Shown one piece after another: positions 1,949 to 27,967 of a stretch of DNA of 64,000 bases. Every line of letters begins with the position of its first letter. Position 1 is the stretch's first letter. A program made the translations under genes and the position numbers. This stretch comes from Halobaculum marinum (GTDB lineage: Archaea > Halobacteriota > Halobacteria > Halobacteriales > Haloferacaceae), in NCBI RefSeq assembly GCF_029338555.1, contig NZ_CP119989.1, positions 1,612,001 to 1,676,000 of the forward strand, read 5' to 3'. The notes beneath the pieces were generated by a model, which ran no database searches, was not told the DNA's origin, and saw only the letters and a program-made list of their open reading frames with translations.

Positions 1949-3307
1949 ATGACCGAGGATCCAGTCCGCGTGGGGGTGCTCTCGCTCCACACGAGCAAGG
2001 AGTCGAAAGCGATCTGCAACGCCATCGAGGCGTTGGGCCACGAACCCGTCTGGCTGCGCCGAGAGAACGCCGCCGTCAGCATCGAGGACGGCGAAGTCAC
2101 CATCGAGCCGGAGGTAGACGTGATCGCCAATCGGATGCTGCTGTCGAACATCGAACAGCCAGCGGAGGGACTCGGCCTCGCGCACACGTTCGGCCGAGCG
2201 CGACCGATCCTCAACGACCCCTCGGCCGTGCTGACGGCGATGCACAAGTTCGCCTCCGCCGTCGCCCTCGCGGAAGCGGGCGTCCGCGTCCCCGACGCAC
2301 TGCTGGCGCTGTCGAACGACCGCCTCAACGACGGTCGCGCCCGCTTCGGCGAGGAGGGCGTGTACAAGACGGCGATCGGCACCCACGGCGGCGGGACGTG
2401 GAAGGTCGACCTGACAGAGCCGGTGAACCCGCAGGTCGGGAACCGCCAGGCGTTCCTGCAGGACCTCATCGACCGCGACGACGCGCGCCACCACGACACC
2501 CGCGTGTACGTCGTCGGCGGCGAGGTCGTCGGCGCGATGAACCGCTACGCCCCCGAGGACGACTGGCGGACGAACGTCGCGCTCGGCGGCGACGTGGAGG
2601 ACGCGTCCGACTCCCTCGACGACGAGGCGCGCGAGATGGCGCTGGCGGCCGCCGAGACGATCGGTCTCGACTACGCCGGCGTCGACCTCGTGCAGGGGTA
2701 CGACGGCTGGTATGTCCTCGAAGTCAATCCCACGGCGGGGTTCAAAGGCCTGTTCAAGGCCAGTGGCCGCTCGCCCGCGCCACACATCGCCCGCCTCGCC
2801 ATCGAGCGCGTCGGCGGCAGCGTCGACGACGACCTGGTGACGGAGCTGTCGGCGGTGCTCGACGACTCCACGCCCGCGTGCATGCCGGCAGAGCGCCGGA
2901 TCAACGACGGACAGGTCCCGATCATCGGCTACATCGAGGAGGTCAACGTCGCGGGGACGCAGGGGGCGACCCAGGCGTACGCCAAGTCCGACACGGGCGC
3001 GACGCGCTCGTCCATCGACACGAAGCTGGCCGCCGAAATCGGCGCTGGCCCGATCAAGAGCATGACGCGCGTGAAGTCCGGCTCGATGAAGTCCGGGAAG
3101 GCCCGACCGGTCGTCGACCTCGTGGTCGGGATCGGCGGCGAACAGCACACTGTCACCGCGAGCGTCGAGGACCGCTCGCACATGGAGTACCCCGTCCTGC
3201 TGGGCCGGGACATCCTCCAGCACTACCGCGTCGACGTCCAGCGCCGCGCCGACGAAGGCGCTGACCCGGACCTCGACGAAGAGGAGGAGGAGGGCGTCGA
3301 GGAGTAA
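1949..3307 (+). CDS. RimK-family ATP-grasp ligase fused to a RimB-like retropepsin domain
   Basis: A 452-residue two-domain protein. Residues 1-290 are a RimK-type ATP-grasp amino-acid ligase: an N-terminal domain starting VRVGVLSLHTSKES, the VYKTAIGTHGGGTWK nucleotide loop, and the metal-binding end YVLEVNPTAGFKGLF. RimK enzymes add glutamate through ATP-driven peptide bond formation. Residues about 320-435 match the RimB group (once called ATP-dependent zinc protease), which is a retropepsin-like fold with the active-site-like motif KSDTGATRSS. In Pseudomonas RimB acts against RimK-type modification, so here maker and breaker sit in one chain. The last 20 residues are almost all acidic. The target, whether protein tail or free peptide, cannot be read from sequence. 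Confidence 0.88.
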   Translation: MTEDPVRVGVLSLHTSKESKAICNAIEALGHEPVWLRRENAAVSIEDGEVTIEPEVDVIANRMLLSNIEQPAEGLGLAHTFGRARPILNDPSAVLTAMHKFASAVALAEAGVRVPDALLALSNDRLNDGRARFGEEGVYKTAIGTHGGGTWKVDLTEPVNPQVGNRQAFLQDLIDRDDARHHDTRVYVVGGEVVGAMNRYAPEDDWRTNVALGGDVEDASDSLDDEAREMALAAAETIGLDYAGVDLVQGYDGWYVLEVNPTAGFKGLFKASGRSPAPHIARLAIERVGGSVDDDLVTELSAVLDDSTPACMPAERRINDGQVPIIGYIEEVNVAGTQGATQAYAKSDTGATRSSIDTKLAAEIGAGPIKSMTRVKSGSMKSGKARPVVDLVVGIGGEQHTVTASVEDRSHMEYPVLLGRDILQHYRVDVQRRADEGADPDLDEEEEEGVEE

Positions 3308-3378
3308 CGCCCGTCAGCCACTCACACGGCCGTCGACAGGCCGGACCGCTTTTCCGTCTCGCGTGAGCAGTCATCAGT

Positions 3379-3573
3379 ATGGGCTTCGGGAGCTACGACG
3401 AATCCGAGCAGGAGCGTCAGCAGAACGACGGCGGCGACGCGGGCGACGGCTCGACCGTCGACGCACACGAGAACGACCACGACGGCAAGGCGAGCTTCGA
3501 GGCCGGCGCGTCCACCGACGACCTCGTCTCGCAGTTGCAGCACATGAAAGGCGACGACGACGACGACGAGTAG
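3379..3573 (+). CDS. Small acidic protein, DUF5786 family
   Basis: A 64-residue haloarchaeal protein of unknown function beginning MGFGSYDESEQE and ending in a run of acidic residues (KGDDDDDE). The middle, FEAGASTDDLVSQLQHMK, is the only segment that could form a short amphipathic helix; the rest is Asp, Gly and Gln-rich and probably disordered. The MGFGSYDESEQ opening is the hallmark by which I place it in DUF5786. It stands alone between the RimK fusion and the archaellin gene with its own short spacers, so no operon partner suggests a role. Confidence 0.75.
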   Translation: MGFGSYDESEQERQQNDGGDAGDGSTVDAHENDHDGKASFEAGASTDDLVSQLQHMKGDDDDDE

Positions 3574-9958: not shown

Positions 9959-10717
9959 TTACTCCTCGTCGGTGTCGTCTGCGTCGTCGGTCGGCTCGTC
10001 GGACACGAGGTCGAGTTCCTCGACCAACTCGGCAATCTCGTCGGCGGTGAACGCCGTGTAGCCGGACTCCGACACCGTCGCGAGCGACACGTCGTCGTGG
10101 GTGAGCTCCTCGTTCGCGTCGAACAGCGCGCGTAGCGCGAGGCCGATGCCGTCGTCGAGGGTCAGCTCCTCGCTCCACTCGTCTTCGAGCAGTTCCTGAA
10201 TCTGCTGACGGGAGCCGCCGATTGCGGTCGCCTTCCACTCGTGGGGCGTCCCCGAGGGGTCGGCGCCGAACAGGCGCGGCTGTCCGTTCTCGAACCCGCC
10301 GATGAGGAGCGCGGCGCCGTACGGCCGGGTGCCACCGCGCTGGGTGTTCTCCTGGATGTGGTCAGTGATGTACTTCGTCAGCGTCTCGACGCCGACCGGC
10401 TCGCGGTAGCGCAGGCGGTTGCCCTGCGCCATCCGGCGGGCGTAGTCGATGAGCTGGCGGGCGTCGGCGACGTGGCCGGCGCTGGCAGTGCCAACGTGGT
10501 CGTCGAGTTTGTGGAGCTTCTCGATGGACTCCGACTCCATGAGGCTGGAGGACGCCTGCGCCTGCGCCGCGAGCACGACGCCGTCTGTCGTGCGGACGCC
10601 GACGGAGGGCGCGCCGCGCGAGACGGCCTCGCGCGCGTACTCGACCTGGTAGATGCGGCCGTCCGGCGAGAACAGCGAGGTCCCGCGGTCGTACGCCTGC
10701 TGGTCGTTCCCCCTCAT
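9959..10717 (-). CDS. psmC: Proteasome alpha subunit (PsmA2/PsmC type)
   Basis: A 252-residue alpha subunit of the 20S proteasome, forming the outer gating rings. The alpha signature YDRGTSLFSPDGRIYQVEYA is at the N-terminus, and the body has the usual RPYGAALLIGG strand. Its neighbour is a DUF1508 protein, as at the Haloferax locus for the second alpha subunit (there called PsmC or alpha2), so I read this as the alternative rather than the major alpha gene. The C-terminal tail is strongly acidic (about 12 Asp/Glu residues in the last 20). A dyad 79 bases upstream resembles the one at the proteasome beta gene in this window. Confidence 0.9.
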   Translation of the reverse strand: MRGNDQQAYDRGTSLFSPDGRIYQVEYAREAVSRGAPSVGVRTTDGVVLAAQAQASSSLMESESIEKLHKLDDHVGTASAGHVADARQLIDYARRMAQGNRLRYREPVGVETLTKYITDHIQENTQRGGTRPYGAALLIGGFENGQPRLFGADPSGTPHEWKATAIGGSRQQIQELLEDEWSEELTLDDGIGLALRALFDANEELTHDDVSLATVSESGYTAFTADEIAELVEELDLVSDEPTDDADDTDEE

Positions 10718-10783
10718 CGGTCACCACCGACGTGAATCGTCGTCGCGAGTGCGGTCATCGCTCCACGGTATGGGGCCACGTCG

Positions 10784-10792
10784 GAAAAAGCC
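10784..10792 (-). promoter_or_regulatory. TATA-like element of the proteasome alpha gene
   Basis: The minus strand reads GGCTTTTTC directly downstream of the CTAAA-N6-TTTAG dyad. Transcription would begin near 10760, leaving a leader of about 44 bases. It is a weak match and is placed mainly by analogy with the proteasome beta promoter. Confidence 0.35.
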
Positions 10793-10795
10793 TCC

Positions 10796-10811
10796 CTAAA
10801 CGGAGCTTTAG
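10796..10811. promoter_or_regulatory. Dyad CTAAA-N6-TTTAG upstream of proteasome alpha, candidate operator
   Basis: CTAAACGGAGCTTTAG is an inverted repeat with 5-bp arms and a 6-bp spacer. It lies just upstream of the TATA-like element, where an activator or repressor could touch the TBP/TFB site. The same arms and spacing occur at 27101-27116 before the proteasome beta gene. The arms are AT-rich in a GC-rich genome, which makes a chance pair less likely. Confidence 0.45.
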
Positions 10812-10865
10812 CGAGCGCGGAGAACCGGCCGAGGGGACGCCCCCGCCGGCGCCGCGCCGGCCCCG

Positions 10866-11057
10866 CTACTCCTCGACGTCGACGACGGGGGCCTCGCGCG
10901 CGTTCGTCTTCACGCTCTCGATGCCCTCCTCGGCCTTCTGTTTGCTCGCGTACCCCTCGCCCGAGTCGGCGATGATGTTCCCGTTTCGGTGGACGAGTCG
11001 CCAGCGCCACTCGTCGGCGTGGTCGCGGTACACCTCGAACGTCGCTTTGCTCGACAT
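10866..11057 (-). CDS. DUF1508/YegP-like small protein (HVO_2922 type)
   Basis: A 63-residue single-domain protein with the DUF1508 pattern FEVYRDHADEWRWRLVHRNGNIIADSGEGYASKQ, a compact alpha/beta fold known from bacterial YegP. The family forms dimers and has no assigned reaction. It lies directly upstream of the alternative proteasome alpha gene with the same orientation, an arrangement also known in Haloferax, but a 148-bp spacer with its own dyad separates them. The tail VVDVEE ends the protein. Confidence 0.85.
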   Translation of the reverse strand: MSSKATFEVYRDHADEWRWRLVHRNGNIIADSGEGYASKQKAEEGIESVKTNAREAPVVDVEE

Positions 11058-11080
11058 ACCGTCTCTACTCGCGCCGGGCG

Positions 11081-11476
11081 CTAATCGCTACCGGCTGTCG
11101 GCTCCGACTCGTCGGCGTCCCACGAGTCGAGCGGCTCGCCGCCGAGGACGAAGTCCGCGCCAGGGTGTTCGGTGAACACGACGTACACCGTCTGCTCGGG
11201 GATGCCGAACCGCTCGCCCAGGGCCGCGGTGAACCGCCGGGCCAACTCGTGCCGCTGGTCGACGGTGCGTCCGGCCCGAACGTCCGCGTTCACGAACGCG
11301 ACCGGTTCCCCGTCGCCGGCGCGACCGATCCGCGGGTCGGTCTGGGCGACGACGACGCCGACGTGGTCGGTCCCGGTGTCCATCACCTCCCCGTACGTCT
11401 CGGCGACCCACGGCGCGAACGCGTCGCGGTCGGCGGCGTCGACCGGAACCGACAGGTCGAATCGGATATGTGGCAC
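11081..11476 (-). CDS. Tautomerase/MIF-superfamily protein
   Basis: A 131-residue protein beginning MPHIRFDLSV, so that removal of Met exposes the N-terminal proline that serves as catalytic base in the tautomerase/MIF superfamily. The later VGVVVAQTDPRIG and FVNADVRAGRTVDQRHELARRFTAALGERFGIPEQTVYVVFTE segments match the second beta-alpha-beta unit of the fold. It probably acts on an enol/keto substrate, as phenylpyruvate or 4-oxalocrotonate tautomerases do. The last 25 residues are acidic and probably disordered. It lies 24 bp upstream of the DUF1508 gene in the same orientation and may be co-transcribed with it. Confidence 0.8.
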   Translation of the reverse strand: MPHIRFDLSVPVDAADRDAFAPWVAETYGEVMDTGTDHVGVVVAQTDPRIGRAGDGEPVAFVNADVRAGRTVDQRHELARRFTAALGERFGIPEQTVYVVFTEHPGADFVLGGEPLDSWDADESEPTAGSD

Positions 11477-11513
11477 GTGGTGACGCAGAACGCGCCACGA
11501 GATAAGTTCCGGG

Positions 11514-12503
11514 TCACGTCGACCGCCGAGCGACGACCGTCCCGTCCGAATCGCGCAGCGTCACCGTCTCGCCGTCGTTGTTGAGTGTGGGTCGACTCCG
11601 CCCCCAGTACAGGTCCGTGTCGGTGTCGTCGCCGCCGCCGACGTGGAGCGTGAGCGTCGCGTCGGCGGCGAGCACCGTTCCCTCGGGGAACTCGTAGGCG
11701 AACCCGGCGGCGTCGGTCAGCGTCCACCCCGATAGGTCGACCGCGGCGTCCCCGCGGTTGTGGAGCGTGACCGTCTCGCCGTTCAGGTTCTCGCCGTCGT
11801 CTCCGGCGGCGTCCGCCGTGATGTCGGCGATTACTACGCCCGACCCGTCGGGGGTGGCCGTGGCGCTTGCTTCCTGAGTCGTCTCGCCGTCCCCCGGGGG
11901 AGCGGCGGTGCCGTCGCGGCACGACCACAGGCCGCGGTCGGCGGCCATCGCGCGTTCTTCCGCCGCGTAGAACGAGTCCCCGCGCTCGAACGACGAGTCG
12001 TACACGCGAGCCAAGCCACGGTCGACGAGCGCGTAGTTGACCGACCCGCCGTCGTGGTGGACGTACACGAGTAGGCGGTCGAAGTACCCCCGACGCGGTT
12101 CGTTCGCGTCGAACGCGATTACGACTTCTTCGCCGAGCAGGCGGTTCTCGACGTAGGTGCTGGCGCGCGCGCCGTACTCGTCGAGACACGCACGCCCCGT
12201 CTCGGTGTCGGGGACGCCCTCGAACTCCCCAGGCGTGTTCTCGCCGTACACCTCGGGGGTGTCGACGCCGAGGAGGCGGGCGGTGTCGGTCGTCCCGTTC
12301 GCGTACTCGATGCGGACGGTGTCGCCGTCGACCACCTCGACGACGGTCACGCGGACGCCGTCCTCGGGGACCGACGCCGTCTGGGGGGCACCCCCGGATC
12401 CGGGTGGGGCGGTCGGGGAGGTGTCGCCGACGGGTCCCGCGAGACAGCCCGCGAGGACGACGAGGAGACAGGAGGCGAGGACGAGTCGGCCGTGGCGGCC
12501 CAT
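11514..12503 (-). CDS. Secreted thermonuclease-like lipoprotein with lamin-tail domain
   Basis: A 329-residue exported protein. The N-terminus has a signal peptide with lipobox LAGC (Cys20), so it should be lipid-anchored outside the cell. Residues about 50-195 are a staphylococcal-nuclease (SNase) domain: [25 protein letters not shown], and [14 protein letters not shown], supplying Asp, Arg and Glu-type active-site residues. Residues about 222-325 form a lamin-tail domain ([34 protein letters not shown], a beta sandwich). The combination suggests extracellular DNA degradation held near the cell envelope. It is divergent from the chemotaxis transducer. Confidence 0.87.
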
Positions 12504-22753: not shown

Positions 22754-22840
22754 ACGCGAGGCGCCGGTGGTCGTCTCCAGGCGATCAGTCGGCGTGTGAA
22801 CGCGAGGCGCCGGTGGTCGTCTCCAGGCGATCAGTCGGCG
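22742..22840. repeat. Perfect 46-bp tandem duplication plus 7-bp remnant
   Basis: Copy 1 is 22742-22787, copy 2 is 22788-22833, and 22834-22840 repeats the first seven bases. The unit carries the TGA of the zinc-ribbon gene at one end and, on the other strand, the TGA of the photolyase gene at the other. The event therefore duplicated the entire convergent spacer, leaving both proteins intact. Perfect identity implies a recent or actively slipping event. Confidence 0.95.
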
Positions 22841-24273
22841 CTCGCTTCTTCCTCCTCCTCACCGCGGGCGCGCTTGAACATCGAGAGCGCCCGTTCCCGC
22901 ATCTCCGAGTGGTCGACGATGGGGTCGGGATACTGCGGCGCGAGTTGTCGCCGGCGCCCGACCGACAGTTCGTGCCACGAGTGGACGTTGTCGGGCGAGA
23001 CGCTCGCGAGTTCGGGCACGTACTCCGTGACGTACTCCGCGTCGGGGTCGTAGCGTTCTCCCTGCGTCATCGGGTTGAAGATGCGGAAGTACGGCTGCGC
23101 GTCCGTCCCCGTCGAGGCGGCCCACTGCCACCCACCGTTGTCGTTGGCGGTGTCGTGGTCCGCGAGGTGCTCTTTGAAGTGCTCGTAGCCGTGGCGCCAG
23201 TCGAGCAGGAGGTCCTTCGTGAGGAACGAGGCGACGATCATCCGGACGCGGTTGTGCATGTACGCCTCCTCCTTCAGCTGGCGCATCCCGGCGTCGACGA
23301 TGGGGTACCCCGTCTCGCCGTCCTTCCACGCCTGCAGGTCCGCCATCGCCTCGTCGTCGTCGCGCCACTCGATGGGACGTTCGTACTCCTTGTAGTTCCG
23401 GCTCACCACCTCGGGGTTCGCCCACAGCACCTGCGTGTAGAACTCCCGCCACGCCAACTGCGACTGGAACTCCTCGACCGCCTCGACCGCGTCGTCGTCG
23501 CCGTCGGCGTCCGCCTCGGCCTTCGCAGTCGCCGTCGCCTCGTACACCTCGCGGACGCCGATGGTCCCCCACTTGAGGTCGGTCGAGAGTCGCGAGGTGG
23601 CGTGCTTCGCGGGGAAGTCGCGGTCCTCGTCGTACCGGTAGATGGCGTCCTCGCAGAAGGTGGCGAGTCGTTCGCGGGCGGCCGCCGTCCCCGCCTCCTG
23701 CACGTCCGCCTCGGGGTCGGCGAAGCCCAGTTCCGCTATCGTCGGGAGGTCGTCGCCGGTCACGTCCACGAGGGCATCCGCGGCGGGCGCGTCGAACGGG
23801 TCGTGTTTGTCGCGGTCGCGCCACTTCTTCCAGAAGTAGGTGTAGACGGCGTACGGGTCGCCCTGGTTGGTCGTGATCGTCCCGGGTTCGTGGTGGACGG
23901 CGTCGTGGCGCGTCTCGCGGGCGACGCCGGCGTCGTCGAGCGCCATGCGGACGCGGGCGTCGCGTTCACGGGCGAGGCCGGAGTAGTCCTCGTTCCAGAA
24001 CACGGCGTCGGCGTCGTGCTCGTCGGCGAGTCGCGGGAGTTCCGCGGCCGGGTCGCCGCGGGCGACGACCAGGTCCGACCCGCGCTCGCGGTAGGCCTCG
24101 CGGAGGGCGGCGAGCGCGTCGAGCATGAACCGGACGCGGGGGTCCGCCCCGTGCGCCAGCACGTCGTCGTCGAAGACGAACACCGGCACGACCGTGTCGC
24201 CGTCGGCCGCCGCCGCCGCGAGTCCGCGGTTGTCGGCGACTCGCAGGTCCCGTCGGTGCCAGAACAGTCGCAT
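22831..24273 (-). CDS. phr: Deoxyribodipyrimidine photolyase
   Basis: A 480-residue flavoprotein that repairs cyclobutane pyrimidine dimers using blue light, protecting halophiles under strong sunlight. The N-terminal photolyase domain begins MRLFWHRRDLRVADN. The FAD-binding region carries WREFYTQVLW, ETGYPIVDAGMRQL and the conserved TANDNGGWQWAASTGTDAQPYFRIFNP. DNDNG-type sequence (TANDNGGW) is characteristic of class I CPD photolyases. Antenna type (folate or 8-HDF) cannot be told here. The ATG at MRLFWHRR is chosen; a 25-residue extension has no conserved features and enters the promoter. Confidence 0.95.
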   Translation of the reverse strand: MRLFWHRRDLRVADNRGLAAAAADGDTVVPVFVFDDDVLAHGADPRVRFMLDALAALREAYRERGSDLVVARGDPAAELPRLADEHDADAVFWNEDYSGLARERDARVRMALDDAGVARETRHDAVHHEPGTITTNQGDPYAVYTYFWKKWRDRDKHDPFDAPAADALVDVTGDDLPTIAELGFADPEADVQEAGTAAARERLATFCEDAIYRYDEDRDFPAKHATSRLSTDLKWGTIGVREVYEATATAKAEADADGDDDAVEAVEEFQSQLAWREFYTQVLWANPEVVSRNYKEYERPIEWRDDDEAMADLQAWKDGETGYPIVDAGMRQLKEEAYMHNRVRMIVASFLTKDLLLDWRHGYEHFKEHLADHDTANDNGGWQWAASTGTDAQPYFRIFNPMTQGERYDPDAEYVTEYVPELASVSPDNVHSWHELSVGRRRQLAPQYPDPIVDHSEMRERALSMFKRARGEEEEEASAD

Positions 24274-24365
24274 GGAACCCATCAAGGGCGGCGCGGTAGT
24301 AACGCTACTGGCACCTGCGGGTGCGGACGATTGGCGGGGGAGACGCACCGCCTGCCGGGGTAGCT

Positions 24366-24371
24366 TCTTAC
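24366..24371 (+). promoter_or_regulatory. TATA box of the LLM oxidoreductase gene
   Basis: CTTCTTACG sits 27 bases before the ATG at 24395, predicting a leaderless transcript. A minus-strand TATA-like element GTTACTACC, about 30 bases before the photolyase start, would serve the divergent gene in the same spacer. Confidence 0.45.
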
Positions 24372-24394
24372 GCTCCGGTCGGCTTCGGGGAGGT

Positions 24395-25393
24395 ATGACA
24401 CACCGCGACGTCTCCCTGCCCGTCGCCGCCCAACCGTCGCTCGACGGCCTCGTCTCGCTGACGGACCGAGCCGAGTCGCTCGGCTACGACCGCGCGTGGC
24501 TCCCCGAGACGTGGGGGCGCGACGCCGTGACGACGCTCGCGCTCGCCGCCGAGCGAACCGAGTCGATCGGACTCGGCACGTCGATACTCAACGTCTACTC
24601 GCGCTCGCCCGCCCTCCTCGGCCAGACTGCCGCCACTCTGCAGGAGGCCAGCGACGGCCGGTTCCGACTCGGCCTCGGGCCGTCCGGGCCCGCCGTGATC
24701 GAGAACTGGCACGGCGTCGACTTCGGCAACCCGCTCAAGCGCACTCGCGAGACGGTCGAGGTGACCAAGCAGGTGCTGTCGGGCGAGCCAGTCAGCTACG
24801 ACGGGAGCCTGTTCGACCTCGACGGATTCCGACTCCGACAGGGGCCGCCCGAGACGCCCGTCCCAGTCGACGCCGCGGGGATGGGCCCCAAGGCGGTGGA
24901 ACTGTGTGGACGGTTCGCCGACGGCTGGCACGCGCTCATGCTCACGCCAGACGGCCTGCGCGACCGCCTCGACGCCTTCCGTCGCGGCGCCGAGTTGGGC
25001 GAGCGCGACCCCGCCGACCAGCGGGTGACGCTGTCGCTCACCTGCTGTGCGCTCGCCGACGCCGACCGGGCGTGGGAGTTGGCCCGCCAGCACGTCGTGT
25101 TCTACGTCGCCGCGATGGGGGACTACTACCGGAACGCCCTCGCCGCGCAGGGGCACGGCGACACCGCGGACACGATCCGGGAGCGGTGGCACGACGGCGA
25201 CCGCGAGGGCGCGATGGCCGCCCTCGACGACGACCTGCTCGACGACCTCGCGGCCGCGGGGTCGCCGCCGGCGGCCAGAGAGACGGTCGAGCGGTTCGAG
25301 GCGGTCGAGGGAGTCGACGCCGTGGCGGTGTCGTTCCCGCGCGCCGCCGAGGGCGACGAGATTCGCGAGACGATGGAGGCACTGGCGCCGTGA
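24395..25393 (+). CDS. LLM-class (bacterial luciferase-like) F420-dependent oxidoreductase, TIGR04024-like
   Basis: A 332-residue TIM-barrel oxidoreductase of the luciferase-like monooxygenase superfamily. LGYDRAWLPETWGRDAVTTLALAAERTESIGLGTSILNVYSRSP is the typical beginning: a Trp-x-x-E strand and Gly-rich cofactor loop as used for F420 binding. The pattern VPVDAAGMGPKAVELCGRFADGWHAL is the later cofactor part. Haloarchaea have many of these F420 enzymes without known substrate. The TGA at the end overlaps the GTG start of the following regulator by three bases, so the pair are probably one transcript. Confidence 0.85.
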   Translation: MTHRDVSLPVAAQPSLDGLVSLTDRAESLGYDRAWLPETWGRDAVTTLALAAERTESIGLGTSILNVYSRSPALLGQTAATLQEASDGRFRLGLGPSGPAVIENWHGVDFGNPLKRTRETVEVTKQVLSGEPVSYDGSLFDLDGFRLRQGPPETPVPVDAAGMGPKAVELCGRFADGWHALMLTPDGLRDRLDAFRRGAELGERDPADQRVTLSLTCCALADADRAWELARQHVVFYVAAMGDYYRNALAAQGHGDTADTIRERWHDGDREGAMAALDDDLLDDLAAAGSPPAARETVERFEAVEGVDAVAVSFPRAAEGDEIRETMEALAP

Positions 25394-26424
25394 GTGATGG
25401 GCAGGACGCTGGGGTGGGAGCGGGCGAGTCGACCGAGACCTCGGTCGCGCCCGACGACGCGTTCGCCGCGCTCGGCGACGAGACCCGCCTGCGAACCGTC
25501 CGCGAACTCGCCGCCGCCGACCAACCGCTCGGATTCACCGACCTGTTCGAGCGCGTCGTCGACGACCCGTCGAAGCCGTCAGCCGGGTTCGCCTACCACC
25601 TCCGAAAACTGAACGGGCGCTACGTCGACACCGACGACGAGGGGCGGTACCGCCTGACGTTCGCGGGTCGACAGGCCGCCCGCGCGCTCGCGGCGGGCGT
25701 TTACACCGAGCGCGTCGACCGCGAACCGGAGGGGGTCGCCGGCGACTGTCCGGTCTGTGTGGCGAGTTCGCTGGAGGCGCAGATCGCAGACAACCACGTC
25801 GCCGTCACCTGCGTCGACTGCGGAACCGAACTGCTCGCGCTCCCGTTCCCTCCGAGCGGCGTCCGCGGTCGCGACACCGACGAGGTCCTCGACGCCTTCG
25901 ACGCGTACCACCGCGCCCGGTTGCGCCAACTGGCAGACGGCGTCTGTCCGGACTGCGCCGGGCGCGCCGTCGGTCGGATCGCGTTCGTCGAACCGACCGC
26001 GCTTCCCGGCGTCGCTGAGGGAGAGTCGCGCCCGGTGGTCGCGGGTGCCTGCGAGGAGTGCGACTTCTCGATTCGGGTGCCGGTGTCGGTCGCCCTCGCG
26101 GACCACCCGACCGTCGTCGCCTTCCTCGCCGACCACGGGGTCGACGCCCGCGAGCGTCCCCTCTGGAACCTCGGCCCGGAGTGGAGCGAGGCCGTGCTGT
26201 CGACCGACCCGCCCGCGGTCCGCGTGTCGGTCGCACTCGACGGCGAGGTGGTGCGTCTCCTCGTCGGCAATGGCCCGACCGTCGTCGACGCCGAACGAAC
26301 GACGACCGGGACGGAGGAGGGGGGCGAGCACGAGAAGAACGAGAAGAGCGAGAGAAGCGAGAAGAGCGAGAGAAGCGAGAAGCGCGACGACGATCAGGAG
26401 GCGACGGCGGCGGGGTCGTCGTAG
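25390..26424 (+). CDS. ArsR-like winged-helix regulator with two zinc-ribbon modules
   Basis: A 344-residue protein. Residues about 20-95 are a winged helix of the haloarchaeal ArsR type (FAALGDETRLRTVREL, then FAYHLRKLNGRYV). It is followed by two C-x2-C/C-x2-C zinc-ribbon-like modules: CPVC...CVDC near 118-145 and CPDC...CEEC near 182-225. A C-terminal beta-rich domain ends at about 310. The last 30 residues are low complexity and made mostly of a repeated SERSEK unit. The 3' end overlaps the opposite-strand proteasome beta gene. GTG start is set by the coupling with the oxidoreductase gene. Target genes unknown. Confidence 0.8.
   Translation: MSDGQDAGVGAGESTETSVAPDDAFAALGDETRLRTVRELAAADQPLGFTDLFERVVDDPSKPSAGFAYHLRKLNGRYVDTDDEGRYRLTFAGRQAARALAAGVYTERVDREPEGVAGDCPVCVASSLEAQIADNHVAVTCVDCGTELLALPFPPSGVRGRDTDEVLDAFDAYHRARLRQLADGVCPDCAGRAVGRIAFVEPTALPGVAEGESRPVVAGACEECDFSIRVPVSVALADHPTVVAFLADHGVDARERPLWNLGPEWSEAVLSTDPPAVRVSVALDGEVVRLLVGNGPTVVDAERTTTGTEEGGEHEKNEKSERSEKSERSEKRDDDQEATAAGSS
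26346..26381 (+). repeat. Two perfect 18-bp tandem repeats in the regulator's 3' end
   Basis: The unit GAGCGAGAGAAGCGAGAA occurs twice (26346-26363 and 26364-26381), with a degenerate copy just before it. It codes for SERSEK and gives the regulator a charged tail. The repeats end 13 bases before the proteasome beta stop codon on the other strand. Confidence 0.85.
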
Positions 26425-27065
26425 ACGCGGTCGTCGACGCCGTCGGGGGTGAGCGTCACCAACTGGAGTCCGTTCCCGGAGGCGGTGTCGCGCTCGCTCG
26501 CGGCGGCGACTGCGCGGGCCGCGAGTCGTTCCGCGTCGGCGACAGCCATCCCGGGTTCGTAGCCTGCTTCGAGTGTCCCGTAGGCGAACGGGCCGCCGGA
26601 GCCGTCGGCGGCGAACGGCTGTTCGAGGATAGACCCCCCGGCGTCGAACGTGAACAGGCGGGCGCCGTCGCCGTCGACGCCACCGAGGAGGTGCTGGACG
26701 CCGTACGGCTGTTGGCGCATCGCGGCGGCCGCGTAGCCCGCGAGCGCGGTCGTCGACATCCGCTGACCGCGGCGGAGTTCGTACAGCCGTCGCTCGGTGT
26801 CGAGGTCGGCGACGAGCGCCTGCGCGCCAGATACGGAACCGGTGAACGCCAGCGCCGCAGTCTCGCCGAGCGGGTGGACCTTCTGGGCGTCCTTGCTCGA
26901 CACCATCCGTCCGAGACTCGCGCGACGGTCCGACGCGAGCACCACCGCGTCGCCGTCGGCACGCGTGCTCCCGGCAGGTGGATCGCTAGTGAAGCTGTCA
27001 GTTCTCGCGACGATACCGACGATGGTCGTGCCGAGCGACGCCTCGCCCGGGGTACTGTCGTCCAT
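26394..27065 (-). CDS. psmB: Proteasome beta subunit
   Basis: A 223-residue catalytic beta subunit of the 20S proteasome. A 12-residue propeptide MDDSTPGEASLG is followed by TTIVGIVA, so Thr13 becomes the N-terminal nucleophile after cleavage at Gly-Thr. The later ASDRRASLG carries the conserved Asp and SSKDAQKVHPL the conserved Lys. Between the first and second strands there is an insertion of about 16 residues (TDSFTSDPPAGSTRADGD) compared with common archaeal beta subunits. The propeptide is much shorter than the one of about 49 residues known in Haloferax PsmB, though a longer start upstream is open. Its 3' end overlaps the winged-helix gene by 31 bases. Confidence 0.88.
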   Translation of the reverse strand: MDDSTPGEASLGTTIVGIVARTDSFTSDPPAGSTRADGDAVVLASDRRASLGRMVSSKDAQKVHPLGETAALAFTGSVSGAQALVADLDTERRLYELRRGQRMSTTALAGYAAAAMRQQPYGVQHLLGGVDGDGARLFTFDAGGSILEQPFAADGSGGPFAYGTLEAGYEPGMAVADAERLAARAVAAASERDTASGNGLQLVTLTPDGVDDRVYDDPAAVAS

Positions 27066-27090
27066 ACACGCACCAGCGCCCCACCGGAGA

Positions 27091-27098
27091 TAAGTATC
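27091..27098 (-). promoter_or_regulatory. TATA box of the proteasome beta gene
   Basis: The minus strand reads GATACTTA, centred about 29 bases before the ATG at 27065. This implies a leaderless mRNA and supports the short-propeptide start. Confidence 0.5.
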
Positions 27099-27100
27099 AG

Positions 27101-27116
27101 CTAAAATATCTTTTAG
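27101..27116. promoter_or_regulatory. Dyad CTAAA-N6-TTTAG upstream of proteasome beta, candidate operator
   Basis: CTAAAATATCTTTTAG has 5-bp arms with a 6-bp spacer; counting one more base each side the perfect arms are GCTAAAA/TTTTAGC around TATC. It sits immediately upstream of the TATA box, overlapping the BRE position. The same arm-and-spacer pattern lies before the proteasome alpha gene at 10796-10811. Confidence 0.5.
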
Positions 27117-27166
27117 CGGCGGGGCGGAATCGGGGCGGAATCGGGGCGGTCGCTCGGGTGGGAGGG

Positions 27167-27841
27167 TCACAGCGCGTCGATGTCGTCACGGCGCCCGTCG
27201 AGGACGGCGAACCGCTCGCCGCGGCGGCGTTCGAGCAGGTGGAGGAGACGCTCGGCCCAGTCGAGTTTCCGCGCCTTCATCCCGTCCACGTCGGGGTCGT
27301 CGAAGTCCCACCCGGGGAACACGAGGTTGGCGGCGCCGCAGGCGTCCGCGAGGAAGGCCGCGCGGTCGCCGTCGGTGAAGCCGCCGTAGTTCGCCACCGC
27401 GTCGACGGGCGCCGCCTGCGTGGTGACGAGCGTGTGGGCGGCGTCGTAGCGGGGGAGCCACTCGTCGACGAGGTCGCCGTTGTCGCCGTGAGCGTGGGCG
27501 ACGACGACGGCGCCGCGGTCGGTGCGGGCGAGGCCAGTTCCGGGGTTCTTGTCGAGGTCCGTCACCATCGCGTCCACCGCGACCCCGAGGTCGTCCAGAC
27601 GGTCAGTCGCCGTGGAGGCGGCGAAGACGCGATCAGCGTCGCGGGCCAACGCTGCGTCGGCTTCGAGCGACGGTCCCGCGCCGGCGACGGCGACGGTGTC
27701 GCCCGCGCAGTCGAGGCGGTCGAGGTCGAACGGTGTCGCGTACGCAGCGGCGCGGTCGCGCACGGTCTCGTCGGCAGTTCGGTCGAAGCCGAAGTCGGCG
27801 AGGATCGCCTCGTAGATCGGCTCCCAGTCGTCGAAGTCCAT
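27167..27841 (-). CDS. mptE: 6-hydroxymethyl-7,8-dihydropterin pyrophosphokinase MptE (DUF115)
   Basis: A 224-residue enzyme of the archaeal MptE type, which uses ATP to pyrophosphorylate 6-hydroxymethyl-dihydropterin on the route to folate or methanopterin-type pterins. It is unrelated to bacterial FolK. The DUF115 pattern is visible: VAVAGAGPSLEADAALA (the Gly-Pro-Ser-Leu loop), MVTDLDKNPG, and VVVAHAHGDNGDLVDEWLPRY. The product is the substrate of dihydropteroate synthase, whose relative is encoded just upstream. Start MDFDDWEPIYEAILADFGF is the usual N-terminus; the three upstream codons are not needed. Confidence 0.92.
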   Translation of the reverse strand: MDFDDWEPIYEAILADFGFDRTADETVRDRAAAYATPFDLDRLDCAGDTVAVAGAGPSLEADAALARDADRVFAASTATDRLDDLGVAVDAMVTDLDKNPGTGLARTDRGAVVVAHAHGDNGDLVDEWLPRYDAAHTLVTTQAAPVDAVANYGGFTDGDRAAFLADACGAANLVFPGWDFDDPDVDGMKARKLDWAERLLHLLERRRGERFAVLDGRRDDIDAL

Positions 27842-27967
27842 AGTCGTCACTCCCTGTGTGGGGACTCAGTAATACGGGATCGGGCCGGAAGCGCACCAGA
27901 GTACCCCTACCCACGGCGCCCTTCCGGCTTCCAGACGGTGGTTGCGACGGATCGGGTATAAGTTTTC

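Follow-up and report, generated by a model that had tools for sequence, protein, structure and literature searches.

A second proteasome beta subunit of Halobaculum marinum shares a rare operator with the alternative alpha subunit

The window, i.e. the complete stretch of 64,000 nucleotides of Halobaculum marinum that was analysed (contig NZ_CP119989.1, positions 1,612,001 to 1,676,000), contains the genes for an alternative alpha subunit (alpha2) and a second beta subunit (beta2) of the proteasome. The relevant features are given below in window coordinates.

9959..10717, minus strand: psmA2, alternative proteasome alpha subunit (alpha2; profile match, tree)
10714..10758, minus strand: short upstream ORF of 14 codons plus stop, its TGA overlapping the alpha2 ATG (sequence)
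10796..10811, no strand: operator CTAAA-N6-TTTAG upstream of alpha2, -94..-79 from the alpha2 ATG
24395..25393, plus strand: luciferase-like monooxygenase gene immediately 5' of that for DUF7347-DUF7351; third member of the cassette
25390..26424, plus strand: DUF7347-DUF7351 protein, candidate regulator, convergent with beta2 (profile matches)
26394..27065, minus strand: psmB2, gene of the second proteasome beta subunit (beta2), catalytic residues intact (ORF, profile match, alignment)
26949..27002, minus strand: S1-S2 loop insert TDSFTSDPPAGSTRADGD, as quoted in the first-pass annotation (alignment)
27030..27065, minus strand: 12-residue propeptide MDDSTPGEASLG (translation, alignment)
27090..27095, minus strand: TATA-like element ACTTAT of beta2, -30..-25 from the ATG (read from the sequence)
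27101..27116, no strand: operator CTAAA-N6-TTTAG upstream of beta2, -51..-36 from the ATG
27167..27850, minus strand: MptE-like gene upstream of beta2, used as synteny marker (profile match)

The translated psmB2 reading frame (26394-27065, minus strand) comprises 223 amino acids and belongs to the proteasome subunit family (PF00227, 127.6 bits versus a gathering cut-off of 22.4). The alignment documents the conservation of Thr1 after Gly-1, Asp17 and Lys33, the residues that define catalytic archaeal proteasome beta subunits, and also of two motifs, ERDxxSG and the GS/TG around Ser129. The TIGR03634 score of 181.8 bits does not reach the equivalog cut-off of 224, which is indicative of a divergent paralogue. 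Four PF00227 proteins of the genome exceed the cut-off, namely alpha1, alpha2, the main beta and beta2. The latter exhibits 48% identity with its own main beta and 81% with the beta2 of Halobaculum litoreum DT92. Ten pairs from five Halobaculum genomes gave dN/dS values of 0.02-0.21 for the beta2 core, computed with the insert omitted, thus indicating purifying selection. Position 45, which presumably contributes to the shape of the S1 pocket, is Phe in all 13 beta2 rows of the alignment and Ile in the own main beta; an S1 pocket altered by Phe45 would change the cleavage preference.

The ATG start of psmB2 is supported by the TATA-like element and the operator upstream, both read by eye. A GTG start at position 27170 was discarded, because the conserved upstream block resembles promoter DNA. 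Locus L035 has an in-frame stop within the operator block upstream of beta2, which excludes in-frame translation from further upstream in this locus.

A previous inspection of the letters of this DNA (the first-pass annotation) had drawn attention to two features of beta2, namely a propeptide of only 12 residues ahead of the catalytic Thr, which it set against about 49 in Haloferax PsmB, and a 16-residue insert between the first two strands. The former is borne out by the translation: the N-terminus consists of MDDSTPGEASLG followed by TTIVGIV, with 12 residues before the Thr of the GTTxVG processing site. The latter is present, but its size differs, since the quoted insert TDSFTSDPPAGSTRADGD has 18 letters and corresponds to a net gain of 17 residues compared to relatives that lack it. 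In the main beta encoded by this genome (L003) the propeptide measures 46 residues and the insert is missing, so that the objection raised in advance, a main beta with the same insert and propeptide length, does not apply. That the two features together mark a distinct proteasome type is, however, not supported by their distribution across the beta2 clade. The propeptide measures 8-12 amino acids in three of the six genera of the clade (Halobaculum, g7, g20) and 22-52 in g6, g18 and g23, where the lengths in relatives depend on the start codons that we chose. Archaeal propeptides have no known function according to a published analysis (PMC8665760).

The insert occupies the S1-S2 turn in all five Halobaculum beta2 proteins, with net lengths of 17, 26, 30, 35 and 35 residues. 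It is hypervariable within the genus, with little sequence in common, and is absent from all nine beta2 proteins of five other genera, eight of which were aligned. Acidic residues prevail in the Halobaculum inserts (4-12 Asp/Glu vs 1-3 Lys/Arg). Tandem repeats in the insert region, a 21-base repeat in L008 and a weak 9-base repeat in L009, suggest slippage at these two loci; no tandem repeat was found in the window copy. Both displayed alignments to solved structures start at chain residue 10, which places the insert just ahead of it, at the S1-S2 turn. We take this turn from the known fold to be the strand end distal to Thr1, facing the outer wall, so that a surface location on the beta ring, as proposed in the first-pass annotation, is plausible. 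A structure model of beta2 from a two-row alignment had a pLDDT of 38. The most likely interpretation is that the insert, probably the least important feature of beta2, forms a flexible loop that is tolerated at the ring's outer wall and has no conserved function. It was rejected as the key feature, because among the beta2 proteins read it occurs only in Halobaculum and is unconserved.

The palindrome CTAAA-N6-TTTAG has exactly two exact matches in the 3.5-Mb genome, one at alpha2 and one at beta2, and the reversed control pattern has none. With one mismatch allowed, the window contains two sites, compared to 0.04 expected from shuffles. A broad regulon in this genome was rejected, given two exact sites and four further one-mismatch sites versus 13 for the control; with only two exact sites, the regulon looks tiny. 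At both genes the palindrome stands just 5' of a TATA-like element. The alpha2 operator is located at -53..-38 relative to the ATG of the short upstream ORF, which is nearly equal to the geometry at beta2 (-51..-36 from the ATG), and the beta2 transcript is probably leaderless. An operator precedes both alpha2 and beta2, which is the sequence hallmark expected of an alpha2-beta2 regulon.

The DNA block 5' of beta2, including the palindrome followed by the TATA-like element, is conserved across beta2 loci. Wherever the DNA upstream of beta2 could be read, in 13 loci, the palindrome is present, 12 times exactly and once with a single mismatch. This count excludes L042 of genome G161, whose beta2 upstream DNA is cut by the contig end; contig C438 of the same genome carries an exact palindrome close to its end, and this site may represent the missing promoter of the L042 beta2. 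The best sites at the loci of the standard subunits have three to five mismatches, both for alpha1 (16 loci scored, one gene twice) and for the main beta (10 loci scored).

A short ORF of 11-18 codons, whose stop overlaps or abuts the alpha2 ATG, was observed in 30 of 33 alpha2 loci and in none of 19 alpha1 loci, the latter being an unfair control because the ATGC start of alpha1 cannot overlap TGA. It is possibly a leaderless, translationally coupled leader peptide.

The beta2 proteins form a clade of 14 rows on one side of a branch with a support of 100/99 and a bootstrap that had not settled. The clade spans six genera, is separate from the main beta and has a stem length of 0.65, in a tree that contains long branches and leaves out 4 of 50 beta loci. 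In a quick tree, the alpha2 of the window falls into one clade with 31 further alpha2 sequences from the family (SH-aLRT 92). A second beta was detected at E<=1e-40 in 14 of 170 family genomes, a threshold that misses more distant second betas such as those of G044 and G158. Small fourth PF00227 proteins of six genomes (G054, G049, G061, G164, G044, G120), with E-values of 1e-12 to 1e-21, were rejected as beta2 and represent distant homologues instead.

All 11 Halobaculum genomes harbor alpha2 but only five have beta2, which documents that alpha2 is independent of beta2. The distance between the two genes is 8-16 kb in 10 of the 14 beta2 genomes (16 kb in the window) and 121-126 kb in G005 and G006; they are far apart in G159 and on separate contigs in G161. 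Reading each sequence, we found the alpha2 operator with zero or one mismatch in all 14 genomes of the beta2 clade. In a scripted set of 37 alpha2 genes the operator was present in 10 of 10 with beta2 and in 6 of 27 without it. Fisher's test, which ignores relatedness, gives p 2e-5 for this association, and phylogenetically independent pairs gave four supported pairs with a median p of 0.25, which is not significant. The six operator-bearing alpha2 genes without beta2 (zero or one mismatch) derive from five Halobaculum strains and G079 (g18), all from genera in which other species hold beta2. The 21 genomes that lack both comprise Halobaculum G002, G158 and G160 of g23, and 18 genomes from genera in which no member of the beta2 clade was found; outside of Halobaculum and g18, the alpha2 operator was seen in none of the 20 beta2-less genomes examined. 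Genus g23 reflects both states, as beta2 and the operator are both present in G159 and G161 and both missing in G158 and G160.

Exact palindromes occur somewhere in 55 of 167 family genomes, and these sites elsewhere show that, family-wide, the pattern is not restricted to proteasome genes. Within the 14 beta2 genomes, 18 of the 20 exact palindromes are located at alpha2 or beta2. All five g21 loci read (L169-L172, L177) carry an exact palindrome 28-34 nt 3' of a reductase-like ORF. This position led us to reject it as a promoter site of that gene, and the recurrent palindrome is perhaps terminator-like or a separate element. In G087 a thermosome-like ORF has an exact palindrome (L162, 1501-1516) ending 64 nt ahead of it; both this ORF and the reductase-like one were named by eye.

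Convergent to beta2 lies the gene of the DUF7347-DUF7351 protein (344 amino acids), which contains CxxC pairs and has a weak match to an ArsR-type HTH (19.6 bits, below the cut-off of 55). A relative adjoins beta2 in all 14 loci, including four without an mptE match, and another one adjoins the beta-alpha operon of G044. At E<=1e-55 the protein is found in 14 of 167 family genomes, namely in 13 of the 14 beta2-clade genomes and in G044, and in none of the remaining 152. G082 has only a C-terminal remnant beside beta2 (L041, about 2050-3570), which is apparently truncated. Five of the six beta2-less Halobaculum strains and G079 have kept the alpha2 operator with no DUF7347-DUF7351 match at this threshold, so the binder may be another protein. 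Judged by its genomic distribution and neighbourhood, the DUF7347-DUF7351 protein is nevertheless the likeliest candidate for the regulator of the operator, an assignment that is less certain than the joint control itself.

The surrounding synteny is indicative of a cassette. In the window, the monooxygenase, DUF7347-DUF7351 and beta2 genes stand between photolyase and mptE, and in the beta2-less genome G003, where this three-gene cassette was not found, the aligned ends of photolyase and mptE are 4 nt apart and thus represent an empty site. The compared regions are L192, about 10304-12448 (G003), and 22831-27850 of the window. This empty site is the one informative region of six, the other five having no mptE or photolyase matches.

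Additional alpha and beta genes are also organized in operons. In G044 the end of a beta gene overlaps the beginning of an alpha gene, and the beta gene is preceded, at a distance of 40 nt, by an exact operator; this alpha-beta pair sits on very long branches and its position in the tree is unsure. G173 and G231, which belong to another family, and G158 contain operons in which additional alpha and beta genes overlap at their ends, the contig of G158 starting inside the alpha gene. We saw no CTAAA-N6-TTTAG operator in the stretches of these three operons that were read; their betas are placed outside the beta2 clade, and their alphas fall with alpha1 in a quick tree. The alternative alpha-beta operons at L149, L150, L151 and L152 apparently have a separate origin. 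Natrialba magadii is reported to have separate alpha and beta genes besides one alpha-beta operon (PMC3403918). The operons of other haloarchaea and the operator shared in H. marinum imply that alternative alpha and beta genes have been linked repeatedly. The rare operator that psmA2 and psmB2 have in common suggests that the cell can switch on a different kind of proteasome.

The explanation that we favor, and regard as fairly probable, is that beta2 is a catalytically active, fast-evolving second beta subunit that is co-expressed with alpha2 under one DNA-binding regulator. CTAAA-N6-TTTAG would be bound by this regulator, which would switch psmA2 and psmB2 together, and their products would assemble into alternative 20S particles, in which alpha2 forms the outer rings and the inner rings contain beta2. 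Beta2 may equally join rings with the main beta or alpha1, and we know of no subunit-specific ring positions for beta2-type subunits. The likeliest use of such an alpha2-beta2 particle would be under stress or in stationary phase, because the alpha2 protein of Haloferax volcanii increases in stationary phase (PMC6267482; PMC2910475) and H. volcanii cells with alpha2-beta particles only show a better hypochlorite tolerance (PMC6267482). For the earlier suggestion that beta2 may assemble with the alternative alpha subunit in a distinct proteasome type there is thus support at the level of gene regulation, from evidence that was not available to the first-pass annotation, namely the shared operator and the alpha-beta operons of other haloarchaea; the propeptide and the insert are not supported as its marks.

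The operator might instead belong to another, broader regulator, e.g. of the stress response, with alpha2 and beta2 in a common programme and the DUF7347-DUF7351 protein employed otherwise. This scenario is a serious contender, if more doubtful than probable: it would account for the alpha2 operators of five Halobaculum strains and G079 that have no DUF7347-DUF7351 match at E<=1e-55 and perhaps for the site before the thermosome-like ORF of G087, which is possibly a chance occurrence, but just two exact sites in this genome and a DUF7347-DUF7351 orthologue that follows the distribution of beta2 argue against it. Rather unlikely is the scenario that beta2 is co-regulated with alpha2 but acts as a general substitute, mixing with the main beta and with either alpha in a continuum of particles. 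The 20S types of H. volcanii, i.e. alpha1-beta, alpha2-beta and mixed, show that its single beta combines with alpha1, alpha2 or both (PMC6267482), a 2026 review reports that archaea produce alternate particles from subunit mixtures (PMC13022661), and alpha2 occurs without beta2 in six Halobaculum strains and 21 examined genomes of other genera. A pairing of the two subunits is, however, favored by the separate alternative alpha-beta operons elsewhere, and the strong divergence of beta2, in terms of both its identity to the main beta and its stem length, also argues against a general substitute.

Two further proposals are concerned with beta2 itself. The S1-S2 insert could serve as a docking loop on the outer wall of the ring, where it would recruit a cofactor or substrate, in agreement with its presence in all five Halobaculum beta2 proteins and its excess of acidic residues. 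We regard this function as improbable, since sequence and length of the insert vary within the genus, none of the nine beta2 proteins of other genera has it and the tandem repeats in L008 and L009 point to slippage there. That beta2 is a decaying or unexpressed copy is very improbable: its patchy occurrence in 14 of 170 family genomes and 5 of 11 Halobaculum strains is what such a copy might show, but the intact catalytic residues, the low dN/dS and the conservation of the operator and the TATA-like element contradict it.

Building on the favored explanation, i.e. joint control of alpha2 and beta2 by one regulator, we tentatively propose, with somewhat less than even confidence, a scenario for the Haloferacaceae. 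A mobile or repeatedly lost module of regulator and beta2, partly accompanied by the monooxygenase, would carry a private operator that wires beta2 to the control of the resident alpha2 and thus provides an inducible alternative proteasome, on which other lineages would have converged via operons. Alternative alpha and beta genes came to be linked by more than one route. In a regulon of two genes, with the operator defined and a candidate for the regulator, the timing, the subunits and the cleavage specificity of the alternative particle become directly testable. Our search of the open-licence literature retrieved no report of an alpha2-beta2 regulatory link, of such an operator, of DUF7347/DUF7351 or of Halobaculum proteasomes.

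Compared with known systems, beta2 belongs to the same family as the archaeal 20S beta subunit (PF00227, TIGR03634; PDB 3h4p_a, 1pma_B) and shares its Thr1 with Gly at -1, Asp17, Lys33 and ERDxxSG; it differs in the TIGR03634 score below the cut-off, the short propeptide, the S1-S2 insert and Phe45. The alpha2 of the window is the counterpart of H. volcanii alpha2/PsmA2, which is part of growth-phase-dependent proteasome subtypes. H. volcanii has one beta, whereas the alpha2 of the window has its operator in common with a second one. The vertebrate immunoproteasome exchanges inducible catalytic beta variants. The likeness of beta2 to it is an analogy only, as the regulation is not homologous; if the proposed module exists, it would be an archaeal counterpart to immunoproteasome switching. 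The HSR1 site of the euryarchaeal heat-shock regulators, CTAAC-N5-GTTAG, differs from CTAAA-N6-TTTAG. Phr/HSR1 control a small regulon of proteostasis genes (PMC10653856) and in this resemble the alpha2-beta2 pair, a likeness that is drawn from the regulon description. The effect of alternative archaeal core particles on proteolysis or fitness is mostly unknown according to a review (PMC13022661). The closest parallel at the gene level is the pairing of an extra alpha with an extra beta in the operons of Natrialba magadii (Nmag_0515-0514), G173 and G231, established by sequence comparison for G173 and G231 and by description for N. magadii. In these operons alpha and beta are adjacent, whereas in H. 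marinum they are 16 kb apart and joined by the operator.
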